Assembly (NCBI GenBank): GCA_030550205.1
Contig: JAUQPS010000002.1
Location: 1-53,728, forward strand
Origin: a bacterium
GTDB taxonomy: Bacteria > Hydrothermota > Hydrothermia > LBFQ01 > DSFT01
Direction of reading: 5' to 3'
DNA length: 53,728 nt
The first letter of the stretch is position 1. Each line of letters begins with the position of its first letter. The position numbers were made by a program, and so were the translations under genes. Under the pieces are notes generated by a model. It saw nothing but the letters and a program-made list of their open reading frames with translations. It made no database searches and was not told where the DNA came from. Of the stretch, positions 9,824 through 41,045 are shown in pieces.

Positions 9824-10710
9824 AATCTCACTTCCTTTCTTAATTTATTTGGAATAACGATAAGATATTTCCCTCTCTTTTCAAATTCAAAAACTTTTAA
9901 ATTTTCATCAAATAGAACATTTTTTATTAATTTTCCATTTTTATCATAAATTAAAATTTTTCCATTATAATTTAGGTTCTTATATATAAAAATTTTTTTG
10001 CTTTTTGTTGAAATTACAAAATTAATTGTATCTAAAATTTCCCCTTTAATTTCTTTGAGATTAGCACTATCATTTATAAATACAAAGTGTTGCTTAAAAC
10101 AATATGCAGGAATTGTATCAATAATTATTGAGCTATCTTTAAGTTTTATAGTTTTTTCTTTATAATCTAAGCAATCTAAATAAAATCTATAATTTCCTTG
10201 GGCTTTTATAGTTATTTTATAAACAATGCCTGGTTTAAAATCAAAGCTTTGCCATATTTTATTTTTACTCATTTGCCAATTTTTAAATTTATATTCTTTT
10301 TGACTAAAATCTATATTTTTTAGAAAATTACTTTCAATTTTAAAAATTCTTATTTTACAATCTTCATTTGAATTATAAAAACTTAACCTAAAAATTACAC
10401 TATCAAAATTTCCAAAATCCTTTATTTCTAAAAATAATTTGTTTGAACTTTTATTTGAGCTTTCTGATTTTTCATTTATTGAAACTTTAAATTTATTGCC
10501 TAAACAATTATTTAGATAATCAATTCTTATATATGGATCTTTAACATTATAAACAACTTGTTCAATATAACCAATTTTTTCGGAAAATATATCCAAAGAA
10601 CTATCACTTTTTTCAATTTTTAAATTTTCAATATCCCAATATTTATATCCGCTTTCTTCTAATTGTGAAAAATCACTGTTTTTAAAAAATAACAAAATTT
10701 CAAGAATCAT
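9820..10710 (-). CDS. Hypothetical exported beta-rich protein
   Basis: A 296-residue protein of unknown function. A very short hydrophobic start (MILEILLFF) is followed by Ser/Asn/Lys-rich beta-strand sequence. The C-terminal 70 residues read like a short Ig-like or sorting-domain fold (NFVISTKSKKIFIYKNLNYNGKI, then GKYLIVIP), comparable to T9SS-like tails, but this is weak. It overlaps the UDG gene upstream and rsmD downstream, so it is an internal operon member. No catalytic motif is seen. Confidence 0.6.
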   Translation of the reverse strand: MILEILLFFKNSDFSQLEESGYKYWDIENLKIEKSDSSLDIFSEKIGYIEQVVYNVKDPYIRIDYLNNCLGNKFKVSINEKSESSNKSSNKLFLEIKDFGNFDSVIFRLSFYNSNEDCKIRIFKIESNFLKNIDFSQKEYKFKNWQMSKNKIWQSFDFKPGIVYKITIKAQGNYRFYLDCLDYKEKTIKLKDSSIIIDTIPAYCFKQHFVFINDSANLKEIKGEILDTINFVISTKSKKIFIYKNLNYNGKILIYDKNGKLIKNVLFDENLKVFEFEKRGKYLIVIPNKLRKEVRL

Positions 10711-12289: not shown

Positions 12290-12300
12290 AAATTTTAAAG
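12290..12300 (-). promoter_or_regulatory. -10 box before the gene at 12284
   Basis: Minus-strand CTTTAAAATTTC overlaps the stop codon of the upstream glycosyltransferase. TAAAAT ends 7 nt before the ATG. Confidence 0.5.
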
Positions 12301-13368
12301 TATGCTTAAAATAACTTTTTCATATTCCTTTGCTATTTTTTCTAATTCAAATTCTTTAACTCTTTCCTTTCCTATTTTTTTGTAGTAATTATAAATTTCT
12401 TGATTTTCTAATAATTTGATAGCATTAACAATCTCTTCAACACTATTTGCATAAATTCCATATTTATTATTCTCTCCAAATGTTTCTTTAATCCCACTTC
12501 CTACTATTGGAATTCCAAGTGCCATTGCCTCATAAAAAACAAGTCCAAATCCTTCAAATTCAGATGGTAATACAAGAGCAAAACAATTCTTTAAATACTT
12601 ATAAGGATTCTTTTGAAATCCCAAATAAAAAACTCTATTTTCAACATTTAATTCTTTTGCATAATTATAATATGGTTCAAAATTACCTTTGCCAAGCACT
12701 ATTAAGTAATAATTTTTTAAATATGTTAAAGCTTTTATAACTTTTTTCAAACCTTTATTTTCTTCAAGTCTTGCCATAAAGCACAATGTTTTATTTTCAA
12801 ATATAAATTCATATTCTTCTTCAATTTCTTCTTTTGAAAGCATTTCAATTTTTTTAATATCAATAGGATTATAAATATATGTGCATTTTTCTTTTGGAAT
12901 TTTATAAAGATTTATAATGCTTTCATAAACTTCTTTTGAAACCGCAATGTTTATATTAGCAAACCTTAAAAGCAAAAAATTTAAAAAGTGATATAAAAAT
13001 TTATTTTTGTATGTATTTAATAGTTTATTCATAATACTATGATGTGTACAAATGCAAGGTTTTTTTAAAATTTTTGAAAATAAAATTGCTATATAATTTG
13101 GTTGAAGCTCAAGCCCACTCATTATAATATCGTAATTTTTTAGGATTTTATAAAACTTCTTAAAAAATTTTAATAAATTCTTACTTATTTTTTCATTTTT
13201 ATTTAATACATTAATAACATTTAATTTCGTTTCATAATCCATTAAATCCTTAAACAAAATAATATCAATATCATAATTTAATTGAAATTTTAAATATTCT
13301 CCAATCATTATGTAAGTTTTTTCTGCTCCTCCCCCTTGTAAAGTTGGTAAAATTATTGCTATTTTCAA
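12295..13368 (-). CDS. Glycosyltransferase family 4
   Basis: A 357-residue retaining GT-B enzyme. The N-terminal ILPTLQGGGAEKTYIMI is the acceptor-side glycine loop. The C-terminal CFMARLEENKGLKKVIKAL and LPSEFEGFGLVFYEAMALGIPIVGS form the donor site, with the E-x7-E motif. It transfers an activated sugar to a lipid-linked or polysaccharide acceptor at the cytoplasmic membrane face. The start is a TTG. It is divergent, across 27 bp, from the Wzz-like gene, so it probably belongs to the same polysaccharide locus. Confidence 0.87.
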   Translation of the reverse strand: MKIAIILPTLQGGGAEKTYIMIGEYLKFQLNYDIDIILFKDLMDYETKLNVINVLNKNEKISKNLLKFFKKFYKILKNYDIIMSGLELQPNYIAILFSKILKKPCICTHHSIMNKLLNTYKNKFLYHFLNFLLLRFANINIAVSKEVYESIINLYKIPKEKCTYIYNPIDIKKIEMLSKEEIEEEYEFIFENKTLCFMARLEENKGLKKVIKALTYLKNYYLIVLGKGNFEPYYNYAKELNVENRVFYLGFQKNPYKYLKNCFALVLPSEFEGFGLVFYEAMALGIPIVGSGIKETFGENNKYGIYANSVEEIVNAIKLLENQEIYNYYKKIGKERVKEFELEKIAKEYEKVILSIL

Positions 13369-13376
13369 TTATAAGA

Positions 13377-13390
13377 TTTAAAATTTTAAG
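13377..13390. promoter_or_regulatory. Shared -10 palindrome between the GT4 and Wzz-like genes
   Basis: TTAAAATTTTAA (13378-13389) is self-complementary and gives a TAAAAT core on both strands: 11 nt before the ATG at 13396 and 14 nt before the TTG at 13368. The whole divergent gap is 27 bp. Confidence 0.5.
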
Positions 13391-13395
13391 GCTTT

Positions 13396-14856
13396 ATGAA
13401 ACATATTTCAGTTCTAGACATAATTTATAGTTTATGGCAAAGAAAAAAGGTAATTTCCTTTTCTATAATTTTCTTTCTTCTTCTTGCTGTTATCTATATT
13501 CTTACTTCTAAGCCAATTTATGATCCAACATCTATTGTAAAAATTAATGTTTTTAATATAAATCCAACATGGGCTTCTGAAATATCAAGACAATATATAG
13601 CTCCAATGACACCTGTTGATAAGGTAGGCTCTGAGGTTGAAGCTATTAAGGTAATTTCCGGTGATGTATTAAAAGAAAAAGGAGTAAATTTAGTTTTTAA
13701 AATACCAAAAAATTTTATAAAGCTTGAAATGAAAAAGACAATTATTGATACAATTAAAAAGGATATAAAATTTTATTTAGAAATAAAAAATGATAGTATT
13801 TTAGTGTTTAAGAATAAAAGTTTATTTTGTAGTGGTAAGCTTAATGAAGAAATCAATTGTTCCCTTTTTAGCTTTAAGTTAAACAAGCTAAAAGACTTTA
13901 AATATGAGATATTAAAAGGAGAAATAATTTATAAAAATTATCCAAAAACAATAGAAGATTGGAATAAAAATAAAATTGTAATTAATCAAGAAGGAATTAC
14001 TGATCTTGTGAAAATAACTATTCTTGACGAAGATAAAATATATGCTAGTGAAATAGCAAATGCCATTGCTAATAGATATATAGAATGGACCATAGAACAA
14101 GAAAAGAGAATTGCTTACTTATCCTTAACTCAACTTAAAAACTTACTAAAAAAATTTGATTATAATATAGATTCATTAAAAGCTATAGCGGATAAACTAA
14201 GGTTAGACAGCTTAACACTTGTTTCTTATATGTTAGAATTTAAACCTACTGACCAAGCTCTTGCCAAATTTATTGAAAAACTAATTTCTGACCCAAATAA
14301 TGCTTATTTAAGAGAAGCTATAAGTAGGTTTTACAAAAAAGATATAGATTATACAAGATTGAAGAATGAAATTGTAAATTATTTAACAAAGAGAGATACA
14401 ATATTATCTTCTATTTTGGATAGAGAAATAACTTTGGCTAAGACTGTATCACCAGCTTATATTTTATCCTATGCAAGTCCTCCATATAAACCGAAATGGC
14501 CAAACAAACCTATAATTTTATTTACTTCTTTATTTTTAGGTATTTTGATTGGTATTATTTTATCTCTTATTTTTGATGTTTTTGATAAAAGAATTTTTAC
14601 CATTATTCAACTTAAAAGGTATTCTCATTTAGAAAATGTTAATTTCTTCTATAACTTAAAAGAATTAAAATTATACATTCTTTCAAAACCTAAATTGAGA
14701 TTCCATTTTAATGAGAAAATTGAAAACTTTGAAAATTATCCAAAAGATATAGCAGATGAATATGTTCTTATAATAAAAAGACCCGTAGATATTTATTCTT
14801 ATATTGATATACAAAATAACTATTTAGATAAAAAGTGCAATATAGTTTTATTGTAA
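13396..14856 (+). CDS. Polysaccharide chain-length regulator (Wzz/PCP-like)
   Basis: A 486-residue protein with the PCP architecture. A short cytoplasmic N-terminus precedes TM1 (about 20-40, VISFSIIFFLLLAVIYIL). A long periplasmic part with helical regions at about 210-330 follows. TM2 (about 372-395) comes after a Pro-rich ASPPYKPKWPNKP, the typical Pro motif before the second helix. There is no tyrosine-kinase ATP site in the roughly 90-residue tail. Such proteins set the length of O-antigen or exopolysaccharide chains. It overlaps the flippase gene by 22 nt. Confidence 0.8.
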   Translation: MKHISVLDIIYSLWQRKKVISFSIIFFLLLAVIYILTSKPIYDPTSIVKINVFNINPTWASEISRQYIAPMTPVDKVGSEVEAIKVISGDVLKEKGVNLVFKIPKNFIKLEMKKTIIDTIKKDIKFYLEIKNDSILVFKNKSLFCSGKLNEEINCSLFSFKLNKLKDFKYEILKGEIIYKNYPKTIEDWNKNKIVINQEGITDLVKITILDEDKIYASEIANAIANRYIEWTIEQEKRIAYLSLTQLKNLLKKFDYNIDSLKAIADKLRLDSLTLVSYMLEFKPTDQALAKFIEKLISDPNNAYLREAISRFYKKDIDYTRLKNEIVNYLTKRDTILSSILDREITLAKTVSPAYILSYASPPYKPKWPNKPIILFTSLFLGILIGIILSLIFDVFDKRIFTIIQLKRYSHLENVNFFYNLKELKLYILSKPKLRFHFNEKIENFENYPKDIADEYVLIIKRPVDIYSYIDIQNNYLDKKCNIVLL

Positions 14857-17262: not shown

Positions 17263-17536
17263 ATTTCTTTAATTCGTTTGTTTCTTTTTCCTTTAAAATG
17301 ATAATATATATTCCTTGTTTTGGTAGTTGATATTTATAAACATTTGTTCCTACGTTTGTAATGCTATAAAGTATTCTACCAGAATTATCATAAATGCTTA
17401 ATATGGCTGGTTTGTCGCTATGAGCATATATAGTAGCACTTTGATTTTTTGTAATAACAGTTGATGCAACATCAAGCTTTATTTGAGCATGTGCTAGGCT
17501 TGTTAAAATTAAAAGTGTTAAAATAAACTTTCTCAT
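17243..17536 (-). CDS. Small exported protein: signal peptide plus sorting-domain-like fold
   Basis: A 97-residue protein. A normal signal peptide (MRKFILTLLILTSLAHAQ, cleavage after Ala-His-Ala) is followed directly by about 78 residues resembling a Por/T9SS-type C-terminal sorting domain. The pattern is SIYDNSGRILYSI, then QLPKQGIYIIILK and KKFILV. These domains normally end large secreted proteins; here there is no passenger. It has its own TTTAAAATTTT box 8 nt before the ATG. It could be a pilin-like or adaptor protein; no function is established. Confidence 0.75.
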   Translation of the reverse strand: MRKFILTLLILTSLAHAQIKLDVASTVITKNQSATIYAHSDKPAILSIYDNSGRILYSITNVGTNVYKYQLPKQGIYIIILKEKETNELKKFILVLP

Positions 17537-18736: not shown

Positions 18737-19860
18737 ATTTAATAATTTTACTTGGAATTGTATCATTATTTGCAGATATTACATATGAAGGGGCAAGAAG
18801 TACAATTGGGCCATATTTATTTATATTAGGTTCAAGTGCAGTTTTTGTGGGATTTATTGGAGGATTTGGAGAGTTTATTGGTTATTTTTTAAGAATTTTA
18901 TTTGGACATTTGGCAGATAAAACAAAAAATTATTGGGCATTTATGATAGTTGGTTATTCTGTAAATGTTCTTTCTGTTCCTTTATTGGCATTTACTAATA
19001 ATTATATAATTGCAGGAGTTTTAGTGATACTTGAAAGGCTTGGAAAAGCAATTAGAACACCTTCAAGAGATACAATTATTTCATTTATTGGAGCAAAATA
19101 TGGTCAAGGGTTGGCATTTGGAATTCATGAAGCCTTAGATCAGATTGGAGCAATAAGTGGTCCATTAATAATTAGTTTTATTTTATTTTTAACTAATAAT
19201 AGCTATAAAACAAGTTTTTTATTTCTTTTAATACCTGCCATTATTTGTATTATTGTTTTAATTTTTACTGCATTTAAATATCCTAATCCCCAATATATTG
19301 AAAAAGAAAAAATAATTTATGGAAGCATTAGAAAAGAAAGAAAATTTTGGATATATACAATAGCGATAGGTTTTGTAAGTTTTGGATTTGCTCACTTTAT
19401 TTTAGTTTCTTATCATTTTAAAAACTTAAATTTATTTAATCCTTCAACAATTCCTTTACTTTATACAATAGCTATGCTTACAGATGCAATTTTTGCTTTA
19501 ATTCTTGGAAAATTATTTGATAAATATGGAATTAAAATTTTATTATTATCTATCACTTTAACATCATTTTCAAGTCCATTATTGTTTCTATTTAATAATA
19601 AATTGATTATCATTTTTTCTATTATTTTGTGGGGAATTGGTGTTGGAACACAAGAATCTATTATGAGAGCTTATATTTCAAATATAATAAGAAGAGAAGA
19701 AAGAGCAACTGCATTTGGCATTTTTAATTCAATATATGGATTGTCTTGGTTTTTGGGTTCTTTTATACTTGGTTATTTATATACTATTTCTATACCTTTA
19801 ATGGTAGCTATATCTTTTCTCTCACAAATTATAGGCATTTTTATTATCCTAAGGCTTTAA
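18733..19860 (+). CDS. MFS transporter
   Basis: A 375-residue polytopic inner-membrane protein with about 11-12 helices. GHLADKTKNYWAFMIVGY matches the MFS loop 2-3 motif (G-x-L-A-D-x-x-x). LERLGKAIRTPSRDTIIS and GKLFDKYGIK support the assignment. These features resemble a bacterial MFS subgroup annotated as multidrug or unknown. The GTG start overlaps the sucC stop by 4 nt. The 3' end overlaps the convergent half-helicase by 12 nt. The substrate is unknown. Confidence 0.85.
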   Translation: MNLIILLGIVSLFADITYEGARSTIGPYLFILGSSAVFVGFIGGFGEFIGYFLRILFGHLADKTKNYWAFMIVGYSVNVLSVPLLAFTNNYIIAGVLVILERLGKAIRTPSRDTIISFIGAKYGQGLAFGIHEALDQIGAISGPLIISFILFLTNNSYKTSFLFLLIPAIICIIVLIFTAFKYPNPQYIEKEKIIYGSIRKERKFWIYTIAIGFVSFGFAHFILVSYHFKNLNLFNPSTIPLLYTIAMLTDAIFALILGKLFDKYGIKILLLSITLTSFSSPLLFLFNNKLIIIFSIILWGIGVGTQESIMRAYISNIIRREERATAFGIFNSIYGLSWFLGSFILGYLYTISIPLMVAISFLSQIIGIFIILRL

Positions 19861-20520
19861 TTCTTCTATGCTTTTAATAATAGGAACTGGTCTAAAATCA
19901 CTTTTTATAATTAACTCTGCTGAAATCCATTTAGCAATTTCCTCATATCTTGGAAGAGTAGCAGATAGTCCAAGAATATCTACTTTATCTTTCATAAATG
20001 CTACTATTTCTTCAATAGCACTTCCTCTGTTTGAAAAAACAAAATGTATTTCATCAATTACTAATGCTTTTGCATTATAGCCCCAACCTTTATTTCTTAT
20101 AGATAATAATAAACTTTCATATGTGCAAATAACTAAATCTGATTTTATTTCATATGCTTCTTCAATAATATCTCCTGTTCTTAAATCAACATATTTAAAA
20201 ATTTTTTTAAAAAATCTAAAAATTTCATTTGCTAAGGCTTTTGTTGGAACAGTATAAACTTTAAAACCTTGATGTTTTTGAACAAAATGAAGAGCACAAA
20301 TTGTTTTTCCACTTGAAGTTGGAGTAGCAATTAATGCAGAACCTTTTTCATAAAATTTATAAAATATAGTTTGAACAGGATTTAAAAATTCAAATGTTAG
20401 CTTTTCATTTAAAATTTTTGCAGGTAATAAATTTTCTCTAAAAGTTTTACCATCTTTTTTATATTCAACATAACCACCTTCTTTTGTAAATTTTGATTTT
20501 TCGCTAATAATTATTAACAC
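19849..20520 (-). CDS. Single-domain (RecA1-only) Ski2-like helicase
   Basis: A 223-residue protein carrying only the first RecA-like domain of a superfamily-2 helicase. It has a Q-like region (LNPVQTIFYKFYEKGSA), Walker A ATPTSSGKT, motif Ia VPTKALANEI, motif Ib near RTGDIIEE, DEIH and motif III SATLP. It stops just after the Ski2-type FRPVPI hinge, where the second domain (motifs IV-VI) should begin. No second half lies in this window. It may be a truncated remnant or half of a split enzyme. GTG start directly after the stop of the PntA-like gene. Confidence 0.8.
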   Translation of the reverse strand: MLIIISEKSKFTKEGGYVEYKKDGKTFRENLLPAKILNEKLTFEFLNPVQTIFYKFYEKGSALIATPTSSGKTICALHFVQKHQGFKVYTVPTKALANEIFRFFKKIFKYVDLRTGDIIEEAYEIKSDLVICTYESLLLSIRNKGWGYNAKALVIDEIHFVFSNRGSAIEEIVAFMKDKVDILGLSATLPRYEEIAKWISAELIIKSDFRPVPIIKSIEELKP

Positions 20521-20781
20521 TTATTTTTTAAACATTGAAAGCATTCTATCCGCTATAAAATAGCCCCCTACAACATTTATTGTTCCAATAAGAAGAGCTA
20601 TAAAACCAAGAATTGAGCCACTTCCAGCAGATTCAATTGCTGAAACTACCATTATTGAAGCAATAGCATGGCTTGCTACAACAAGTGGTGTATGGAGTAT
20701 TGGAGGGACTTTCGTTATAATTTCAAAACCTATTATTAAGGATAACACAAAAAGCACAATTGCCAAAACAATAGGATCCAT
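20521..20781 (-). CDS. NAD(P) transhydrogenase alpha subunit, 4TM part (PntA2)
   Basis: An 86-residue membrane protein with three to four helices. KVPPILHTPLVVASHAIASI corresponds to the conserved x-V-x-P-x-L-H-T-P-L-M-S-x-T-N-A-I-S-G segment. The end, GTINVVGGYFIADRMLSMFKK, closely follows the PntA C-terminus. In split transhydrogenases this subunit, with PntA1 and PntB, couples hydride transfer between NADH and NADP+ to proton flow. PntA1 and PntB are not adjacent. The usual Thr-Asn-Ala is replaced by Ser-His-Ala, a notable change in the membrane core. Promoter shared with the divergent gene. Confidence 0.85.
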   Translation of the reverse strand: MDPIVLAIVLFVLSLIIGFEIITKVPPILHTPLVVASHAIASIMVVSAIESAGSGSILGFIALLIGTINVVGGYFIADRMLSMFKK

Positions 20782-20783
20782 AG

Positions 20784-20799
20784 CTTTAAAATTTTAAAG
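20784..20799. promoter_or_regulatory. Bidirectional palindromic promoter
   Basis: CTTTAAAATTTTAAAG is a perfect 16-bp palindrome that nearly fills the 18-bp gap between two divergent start codons. Plus-strand TAAAAT (20787-20792) ends 7 nt before the ATG at 20800. Minus-strand TAAAAT (20796-20791) ends 9 nt before the ATG at 20781. Confidence 0.65.
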
Positions 20800-21540
20800 A
20801 TGGCGTTTTTTCTCCTTTCACAAATTGTTTTTAAATCTGAAAGTGTTAACATTTATATAAAAGATATAGGAAATATAACAGGCATTCAAGAATATTATAT
20901 ATCTCAAACTAAGTATAGAATAAATGAAAAACTAAATTTAAATAGGGAAAAGTTAGTAAGTAAATTTATGGAAAAATATTATGCGGGTAATAAGTCCATT
21001 ATTATAGATCTGGATAATGATAGTGTTTATAGAATTGATAATTATGAGAAAAGTTATTATGTTTATAAATTGGATAATTACATAAGACCTATTGAAAAAG
21101 TTGAAGAAAAGAAAAAGGATGTAAAAGCAAAATTAAGTATTAAAAATTTAGGTGATTGTAATTATGAAATTAAGTTTAGTTTTGAAGGAGATAGTATCAT
21201 TTCAAAAATTTGTTATAAAGAAATTGAAACAAATCAAGTTGAAAATCAATTCTTTTTAAATTATAATAAAAAAATTAAAGTGGATATAGATAGTAGAATT
21301 TTTCAAAAGCTTGGAGTATTTTCAATAAATAATCCATTTGTAAAATTTTTAATGAGTGATGTTGTAAAGAAATCTGATTTGGAAAAGATATTAAAAATTA
21401 AGGGTTATCCATATACCATAGAGCTTAGATACTATAATGATACAAGCTTAGTTTATAAGTATTTTTCAAAGCTTATAAGAGTTGAGAATAGAGGGGACGT
21501 AAATGTTTTTAAGATTGATACTACTTATAATCGCAAGTAG
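20800..21540 (+). CDS. Hypothetical exported protein (possibly DUF4412-like)
   Basis: A 246-residue protein. A very short uncharged hydrophobic start (MAFFLLSQIVF) is followed by an all-beta-looking sequence. SIIIDLDNDSVYRIDNYEKSYYVY resembles the strand pattern of DUF4412/LolA-like periplasmic proteins, in which a bound state is read out as a beta-sheet. This assignment is weak. Its stop overlaps the start of the downstream lipoprotein gene by 38 nt, so the two are probably co-expressed. Confidence 0.6.
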   Translation: MAFFLLSQIVFKSESVNIYIKDIGNITGIQEYYISQTKYRINEKLNLNREKLVSKFMEKYYAGNKSIIIDLDNDSVYRIDNYEKSYYVYKLDNYIRPIEKVEEKKKDVKAKLSIKNLGDCNYEIKFSFEGDSIISKICYKEIETNQVENQFFLNYNKKIKVDIDSRIFQKLGVFSINNPFVKFLMSDVVKKSDLEKILKIKGYPYTIELRYYNDTSLVYKYFSKLIRVENRGDVNVFKIDTTYNRK

Positions 21541-38902: not shown

Positions 38903-39317
38903 CATAAATTATTAAAGCAATAATAATACCCCATATTGCTCCTACAAATACCTCAATTGGCGTATGTCCAAGAAGTTCTTTCAATTTTTCATCTGCTTTT
39001 CTTCCTGAATATAAGTCTTCAATGATTTTATTTAATATCTCAGCTTGTTTTCCAGCAGCCCTTCTAATTCCAGCGGCATCATACATTACTATGAAACTAA
39101 AAAATAAACAAACTGCAAAAAGATTTGATCTAAAACCTTCTTCAAATCCAACAGCCATAGATAATGACATTACTGAGGCAGAATGTGAGCTTGGCATACC
39201 TCCTGTTGAAAATAAAATTCTAAAATCTATTTTTTTTGTGTTTATGTAATTTATTATTAATTTTAAAAGTTGAGCACTTAAACTTCCTATAATTGCAGTC
39301 AAAAGTACTTTATTCAT
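38895..39317 (-). CDS. DUF212 / divergent PAP2 membrane protein (YuiD-like)
   Basis: A 140-residue membrane protein with four to five helices. STGGMPSSHSASVMSLSMAVG and MYDAAGIRRAAGKQAEILNKII, with ELLGHTPIEVFVGAIWGI, are exactly the conserved blocks of the DUF212 (divergent PAP2) family. The SSHS and GHTP elements correspond to PAP2 phosphatase motifs. The substrate is unknown. It overlaps the prenyl synthase gene by 8 nt, which hints at polyprenyl-phosphate metabolism. Confidence 0.88.
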   Translation of the reverse strand: MNKVLLTAIIGSLSAQLLKLIINYINTKKIDFRILFSTGGMPSSHSASVMSLSMAVGFEEGFRSNLFAVCLFFSFIVMYDAAGIRRAAGKQAEILNKIIEDLYSGRKADEKLKELLGHTPIEVFVGAIWGIIIALIIYAL

Positions 39318-40110
39318 CTCTATTTGATAAAAGTTCTATAAAATCGTTCAAAAGCTCATAATTTCTAAAGTTTTGCTTAATTAAATTTTTTGTTTCTTCT
39401 TTTAAATTTCCTATCATTTCTTTAACTTCTTTATAGCTCAAGAATTTTAATATATTTATATCTTCTTTCTTATCCTTATCCAATAAATCATCAACTAATT
39501 GAAATATTGCTCCAATGTTCTTACCTACGATTTTTACAATTTCCACATTTTCCCCATCAGATAATAAATAACCACAAACTAAACTTGCTTCTATAAGTTT
39601 TCCTGTCTTATAATAATGTAGCTCTAAAAGTTCATTTAAACTATTTATATTCTTTTGGATATCTTTAACTTGTCCCTTTATCATATACAATGTTCCTTCA
39701 ATTACAATACTTGATATTTCCTTATCAATTTTATTTAAAAATTTAAAAGCATATGCAAATAAGGCATCACCTGTTAATATGGCAATTGCTTCTGAAAATT
39801 TTTTATGAACTGTAAGTTTATTTCTTCTATAATCGTCATTATCAAGGGCTGGTAAATCATCATGAACTAAGGAAAAATTATGTATTAGTTCTAAGGCACA
39901 AGCCAAATCATAAAGTTTATTATCAATTTCATCTTTATTTAGTTTATATCCTAAGTATGCCAAGAATGGTCTAACCCTTTTACCCCCTTCTAAGCTATAT
40001 AACATCGCTTTATTTAAAATTTCTGGTTCTTTTATTTCTTTTATTAAGTTTTCTATTAAATAATTTTCTAAATTTTCATTAAATTTTAACCAAACTTCTT
40101 TTAAACTCAT
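39310..40110 (-). CDS. Polyprenyl (farnesyl/geranylgeranyl) diphosphate synthase
   Basis: A 266-residue all-helical prenyltransferase. GGKRVRPFLAYLGY precedes the first Asp-rich motif, LVHDDLPALDNDDYRRNK. GDALFAYAF, YYKTGKLIEASLVCG and the second motif FQLVDDLLD follow. It condenses isopentenyl diphosphate with allylic diphosphates. The two extra residues in the first motif (D-D-x4-D) are of the bacterial short-chain (FPS-II/GGPS) type. Its promoter box lies in the final codons of the upstream dehydrogenase. Exact chain length not predictable. Confidence 0.9.
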   Translation of the reverse strand: MSLKEVWLKFNENLENYLIENLIKEIKEPEILNKAMLYSLEGGKRVRPFLAYLGYKLNKDEIDNKLYDLACALELIHNFSLVHDDLPALDNDDYRRNKLTVHKKFSEAIAILTGDALFAYAFKFLNKIDKEISSIVIEGTLYMIKGQVKDIQKNINSLNELLELHYYKTGKLIEASLVCGYLLSDGENVEIVKIVGKNIGAIFQLVDDLLDKDKKEDINILKFLSYKEVKEMIGNLKEETKNLIKQNFRNYELLNDFIELLSNRDE

Positions 40111-40112
40111 TT

Positions 40113-41045
40113 TTAAAATTTTAAAGTTTGCTTTATGATATTTACTAAATTCTTAGTTCTCATCTCAAAAATTTCTGGAACTAATGGGGAATTGTGGGGA
40201 GAACCAATGAAGTTTTCAAATTCAAAGAAATTATAATCTAATTTAAATTTCCCTTCTATGGTAGGTTCATGCCACCATACATCTAATCCAACTTTAAATT
40301 CAGGATGATTTTTCATATGCTCATAAAGGGCTTTTTGATCAATAATTTGTCCCCTTGCTACATTTATTAAAATTGCATTTTCTTTCATAATTTCAAGCTC
40401 CCTTCTTGATATTAAGTTTCTTGTTCTTTCTGTTAGTGGTATTGAAATTACAATTACATCTGAATTTTGCAAAACAAAATCAAGACTATCTAAGGTTCCA
40501 ATGTAATCTACAGTTTCATCCGTTTTACCAGTTGAGTTTATGGCATAAACTTTCATACCAAAAGCTTTTGCTAATTTCCCAACTGCTTTTCCAATCCCTC
40601 CAAATCCAATTATTCCCATTATTTTATTATATAAAAGCGTATTTCTTATAGATTGGTCAAATACACCATTTTTTAACTTTTGATTATTTATATGTAATCT
40701 CTTTGCAAGGGTTAAAATCATTCCAAAAACATGCTCTGCTATTGCAATTGAATAACCCCCACTATTAGGAATAATTTTAACATCTTTTGAAAATAAATTC
40801 ACATCTATATGATCAATACCAGCAAAAATACAAAATACATATTTTAGTTTTTTTAGACTTTCAATTTCCTCTTTTTTTAATTCTCTTTGTGGAAATGCGG
40901 TTATTATAGCATCCGCTTCACTTATAAATTCCATTCTTCTATCAACTGGTAAATCAAAAAGATAATTTATATTTGCAATATCTCTTAATTCTTCATATAT
41001 CTTCCTCTCAACATCTTTAAGTTTATATGTTATTAAGATGTTCAT
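40113..41045 (-). CDS. D-isomer-specific 2-hydroxyacid dehydrogenase
   Basis: A 310-residue NAD-dependent dehydrogenase. The nucleotide-binding site is MGIIGFGGIGKAVGKLAKAFGMKVYAIN. ISIPLTERTRNLIS, LINVARGQIID (Arg of the active site), GLDVWWHEP (Glu) and GSPHNSPL (His) complete the catalytic set. Members reduce 2-oxoacids, as in glycerate, phosphoglycerate or formate dehydrogenases; substrate undetermined. ATG overlaps the GT2 gene end by 4 nt. Confidence 0.9.
   Translation of the reverse strand: MNILITYKLKDVERKIYEELRDIANINYLFDLPVDRRMEFISEADAIITAFPQRELKKEEIESLKKLKYVFCIFAGIDHIDVNLFSKDVKIIPNSGGYSIAIAEHVFGMILTLAKRLHINNQKLKNGVFDQSIRNTLLYNKIMGIIGFGGIGKAVGKLAKAFGMKVYAINSTGKTDETVDYIGTLDSLDFVLQNSDVIVISIPLTERTRNLISRRELEIMKENAILINVARGQIIDQKALYEHMKNHPEFKVGLDVWWHEPTIEGKFKLDYNFFEFENFIGSPHNSPLVPEIFEMRTKNLVNIIKQTLKF
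40115..40126 (-). promoter_or_regulatory. -10 box before the prenyl synthase, inside the upstream stop region
   Basis: Minus-strand CTTTAAAATTTTAA encodes the final TLKF and stop of the dehydrogenase gene. TAAAAT ends 7 nt before the ATG at 40110. Confidence 0.55.

Follow-up and report, generated by a model that had tools for sequence, protein, structure and literature searches.

The 18-bp gap and its palindrome

The window, a 53,728-nt stretch of contig JAUQPS010000002.1, comes from the 1.89-Mb metagenome-assembled genome (MAG) of an uncultured WOR-3 bacterium, placed beside candidate division WOR-3. Two start codons in this window face away from each other across an intergenic gap of only 18 bp (20782-20799). 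The minus-strand ATG (20779-20781, CAT on the plus strand) opens a gene for a transhydrogenase subunit (20521-20781), and the plus-strand ATG at 20800 opens a gene without assigned function (20800-21540). The gap consists of AG followed by CTTTAAAATTTTAAAG, a perfect 16-bp palindrome at 20784-20799. The first-pass annotation of the window had pointed out this arrangement and taken it for a complete divergent promoter; the spacing and the palindrome were confirmed, and relatives support both starts. Homologues from other lineages share the first residues of the minus-strand product (MDPI..), 20800 is the earliest possible start in the plus-gene frame, and this frame and start are kept in a congener, with 63% amino acid identity.

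Boxes and gaps were counted in 765 kb of the genome itself (G000) and 391 kb of the congener (G001); the comparison genomes also included a family-mate genus (G002, 51% GC) and further relatives from the phylum. The controls were the reversed 16-mer, permuted 11-mers, nine permutations of TTAAAAT, 20 other A+T palindromes and shuffled sequences. The palindrome between 20781 and 20800 is not a chance occurrence. The 16-mer CTTTAAAATTTTAAAG has 10 copies in the 1.89-Mb genome, compared with none for its reversed control, and the 14-mer TTTAAAATTTTAAA has 62 genome matches versus 6 for the control. Allowing up to two mismatches to the palindrome, 8 matches were found in the window, where 0.97 were expected. 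CAT and ATG flank the palindromic core in 11 of 70 cases, and flank none of the copies of any of the 20 other palindromes. A comparison with relatives, suggested in the first-pass annotation, revealed that the gap is identical in the congener at all 18 positions, with DNA identities of 80% and 73% in the flanking genes.

The same annotation had assumed a single -10 box serving both directions. We found instead two opposed TAAAAT hexamers overlapping by 2 bp, a putative forward -10 element at 20787-20792, 7 nt ahead of the ATG at 20800, and a putative reverse one at 20796-20791 on the minus strand, 9 nt ahead of the ATG at 20781. Both spacings lie at modes of the genome-wide distance distribution. 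In this register, position -15 of the forward promoter is a C at 20784, where the genome-wide motif carries the most information, and position -15 of the reverse promoter is likewise a C at 20799 (G on the plus strand). No Shine-Dalgarno sequence or other ribosome-binding site was seen ahead of either gene, and classical -35/-10 pairs around the gap were not above the level in shuffled sequences.

The genome-wide promoter box

Unanchored motif discovery on upstream regions recovered the same box ahead of 32% of genes in the genome itself, 29% in the congener and 20% in the family-mate. Its consensus is R-C(-15)-T-T-TAAAAT(-12..-7)-TTT, with C at -15 in about 90% and T at -14 in about 85% of boxes, and in about 30% of genes it sits 6-11 nt ahead of the start codon; the family-mate version is looser (C-T-T-TAAAAT-TT). 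The sequence CTTTAAAATTT occurs at 225 sites in the 765 kb, 120 of them 5-12 nt before a start codon, 22 farther upstream of starts and 13 just upstream of tRNA genes, whereas permuted 11-mers averaged 11.2 sites in total and 0.37 at starts. Similarly, TTAAAAT lies 2-14 nt upstream in 188 of 591 called genes, compared with 2-24 for the nine permuted controls. Among 98 ortholog pairs, the box is present in both members of 20, in one member of 11 and in neither member of 67 (p=2e-11). The box is therefore not special to divergent gaps; by its distribution it would serve about 30% of genes as their ordinary one-way leaderless promoter, and tRNA genes as well, 16 of 21 leading tRNAs having it upstream.

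The tRNA-Asn boxes in two genera read CTTTATAATTTT. Because these are TATAAT variants, the hexamer can be identified as the usual -10 element (TATAAT/TAAAAT), which fixes the register. The 6-11 nt from hexamer to start codon then predict leaders of about 0-5 nt. No informative upstream position was found in the genome-wide promoter profile; thus a -35 element is not part of the motif, and nothing points to one within the opposite gene, where the first-pass annotation had placed any -35. Altogether, the lineage box looks like a -10-only promoter of leaderless or nearly leaderless mRNAs, and a separate class of genes with a Shine-Dalgarno sequence (AGGAGGT) coexists in the genome.

Near ATG, CTTTAAAATTTT has 193 and 123 matches in the genus, compared with 0-6 in the phylum members searched outside it, and is thus essentially genus-confined. 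The shorter form TTTAAAATT reaches the family-mate genus (84 versus 3 for the control, and 82 versus 7) and extends weakly beyond it. Since the family-mate has 51% GC, base composition does not account for the box. G000 and G002, family members at ~28% and 51% GC, carry a near-identical A+T-rich box, and the promoter has therefore withstood a large shift in base composition. At a separate locus, L078, two identical box-plus-start sequences lie 2.7 kb apart (about 5131 and 7870), which suggests a recent gene duplication.

The main sigma factor encoded in the genome is an ordinary RpoD with regions 2 and 4 intact. The residue after WWIRQAI in region 2.4 is M in the genome itself and I in the congener (minus-strand loci L156:1000-2646 and L159:997-2622), and T or S in six other relatives. 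We take this residue to be at the position of T440 in Escherichia coli, which is linked to recognition of -12. This change was considered as the cause of the box and rejected, because the family-mate, which has T, uses nearly the same box.

Proposed two-way use of the box and its alternatives

The first-pass annotation had proposed a search of other short divergent gaps for the palindrome, and the outcome favored a divergent promoter. The palindromic core was present in 7 of the 8 gaps of up to 30 bp between divergent ATG codons in the genome itself and in both such gaps in the congener; the one exception, an overlapping CATATG, probably has a miscalled start. The gaps that hold a box span 17-24 bp, the lower end (17-18 bp) being close to the minimum that can accommodate both promoters. 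Boxes containing the symmetric core TTAAAATTTTAA were divided into one-way boxes, with a start on one side, and two-way boxes, with starts on both. Of 41 one-way boxes, 40 carry the C at -15 on the start side and 8 the mirror-image G. The fully symmetric C..G is found in 6 of 9 two-way boxes versus 7 of 41 one-way boxes (p=0.006), suggesting that two-way use tends to be marked by an outer C/G at both ends.

We consider it very probable that the palindrome at 20784-20799 serves as a core promoter for both directions, built from two copies of the standard -35-free box of the lineage that overlap; it would be used by the housekeeping sigma factor and give leaderless or nearly leaderless mRNAs both ways. 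RNA polymerase with RpoD would load on the symmetric box in either orientation, with no need for a -35 element. The predicted start sites, 20799-20800 on the plus strand and 20784-20781 on the minus strand, coincide with the start codons or lie no more than about 3 nt away, and are 15-19 bp apart, so that the mRNAs of both the pntA2-type gene and the plus gene would be leaderless or nearly so. The regions melted by the two polymerases would be about 20788-20801 and 20782-20795. Because the footprints and these melted regions overlap, one polymerase would block the other. The mutually exclusive firing proposed in the first-pass annotation therefore holds for physical occupancy, where it is geometrically unavoidable. 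It does not necessarily extend to expression, since in E. coli the two directions of such a promoter leave each other unaffected at basal strength (PMC12825309).

Several points weigh against the bidirectional promoter. The MAG is 86% complete with 6.7% contamination, about 40% of the genome was sampled, and gene starts were taken from a simple caller. The C..G contrast does not reach significance in the congener, where the sample was small. Symmetric boxes also occur where no gene is called on the opposite side, in 7 of 41 one-sided boxes of the genome itself and in most of those in the congener sample, and symmetry alone is therefore insufficient proof of two-way use. These boxes, together with the near-palindromic sequence of one-way boxes in general (TTAAAATTTT), would fit a gap in which only one direction works and the symmetry is incidental to the box. 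However, both starts are at modal distances, the usually one-sided C is present at both ends, the gap is fully conserved, and neither gene is preceded by an alternative promoter above chance or by a ribosome-binding site. We therefore regard use in one direction only as improbable.

The classic operator layout, a perfect inverted repeat with genes diverging on either side, is also seen here, and the palindrome might be bound by a dimeric regulator of the gene pair instead of being the promoter itself. However, the same box, mostly not fully symmetric, lies at the same distance ahead of about 30% of genes and most tRNAs, no other -10 motif is found between the box and the starts, and neither flanking gene matches a regulator family, making an operator highly improbable. 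A translation signal or RNA element would fit the fixed position directly ahead of ATG, but the box also precedes untranslated tRNA genes, which excludes a purely translational role, and we give this explanation practically no credence.

Besides the proposed bidirectional promoter at 20784-20799, the window contains an imperfect two-way box, ATTTAAAATTTTAAGG, at 13376-13391, in the 27-bp gap between genes 12295-13368 (minus strand, start TTG) and 13396-14856 (plus strand). A second copy of the 14-mer TTTAAAATTTTAAA (40112-40125, minus strand) is one-way; it lies 1 nt before the minus-strand gene 39310-40110, where the gene ahead of it (40113-41045, also on the minus strand) has its 3' end. A second compact layout in the genome consists of two separate back-to-back boxes, with the two C(-15) positions separated by 1 to about 28 bp; offsets of -14 to 0 do not occur. 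Within 40 bp, about 26 box pairs are divergent versus 4 tandem. The boxes are so close that the -35 region of one polymerase falls inside the box of the other. Such pairs were observed at L051 (about 17265-17305), at L062 (about 10640-10670) and at several more loci, five of them directly abutting (AAATTTTAAAGCTTTAAAATTT type). We tentatively propose, as a possible though somewhat doubtful generalization, that the housekeeping promoter box of the genus is near-palindromic and -35-free, that it takes its direction mainly from the single C at -15, and that a C added on the opposite side makes it two-way. One-way and two-way boxes would then form a graded set, and weak antisense firing would be expected from the one-way boxes.

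Flanking genes and relation to known promoters

The minus-strand gene (20521-20781) encodes a four-helix NAD(P) transhydrogenase subunit of the pntA2 type (PNTB_4TM, PF12769, E 6.7e-25), with a predicted leader of 0-3 nt. In the genus this subunit is separated from its operon, and pntB is on a different contig. The genes pntA1, pntA2 and pntB are adjacent in family-mate and order-mate genera (the loci compared were 20521-20781 of the window, G000:C22:18805-20154 (L237), L229, L230, L233 and L234). A DEAD-helicase-like gene follows the subunit gene in both the genome itself and the congener; in the window it occupies 19849-20520 on the minus strand and encodes a short DEAD/DEAH helicase-like protein of 223 aa (226 aa in the congener) that matches the helicase core domain only. 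A family search with the plus gene (20800-21540) revealed no family matches, and a clear relative was found only in the congener among the 12 relatives searched. Changes between the two versions by codon position are 60/51/108, highest at the third position. Its product is probably exported, judging from a hydrophobic N-terminus, and its mRNA is predicted to be leaderless.

Bacterial bidirectional promoters of the kind reported by Warman et al. (2021) have a near-symmetric -10 element that polymerase can bind either way and start sites on opposite strands 7-25 bp apart, as described in PMC10268837 and PMC12825309. The overlapping, opposed -10 elements of this family are found at 20787-20792 and 20796-20791, and the 15-19 bp predicted here would fall in the range of separations. 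In the commonest E. coli type, start sites are 18 bp apart and -7 and -11 coincide reciprocally (PMC10268837). This coincidence, which defines that subtype and is not a requirement of the family, is absent here, as the register is 3 bp off (-7 of the plus promoter at 20792, -11 of the minus promoter at 20795), a further point against our interpretation. At five bidirectional promoters of E. coli, transcription at the basal level was too weak for the two directions to compete, and a direction repressed its counterpart only once it was itself strongly activated (PMC12825309). Any exclusivity of expression would therefore depend on promoter strength.

Leaderless promoters with a -10 motif are known from Deinococcus-Thermus (PMC12340547) and from the work of Zheng et al. 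2011 (PMC3160421). The lineage box shares with them a TANNNT sequence a few nucleotides before the start codon, independence from a -35 element and use by roughly 30% of genes; TAAAAT lies at 7 and 9 nt in the gap, and the genome-wide peak is at 6-11 nt. However, the box is longer and more specific (R-C-T-T-TAAAAT-TTT); its C at -15 is strongly conserved and its center is near-palindromic. Extended -10 promoters (TGn TATAAT) likewise lack a -35 and have conserved bases immediately before the hexamer, but these are TG at -15/-14, where the lineage box has C and T. The element would thus be a known bidirectional promoter combined with a known leaderless -10 promoter, in a compact, genus-wide variant with a lineage-specific box. 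In a search of an incomplete set of papers, neither leaderless genes in WOR-3 nor comparable two-way leaderless promoters were found to have been described, and the box would give this lineage a described core promoter. If this interpretation is true, the locus is a near-minimal divergent pair, with two genes served by two promoters in 18 bp, which recurs across the genus and is conserved between species. It would provide a natural test case for how RNA polymerase chooses its direction at a symmetric promoter, and the box can aid start-codon calling in these genomes.
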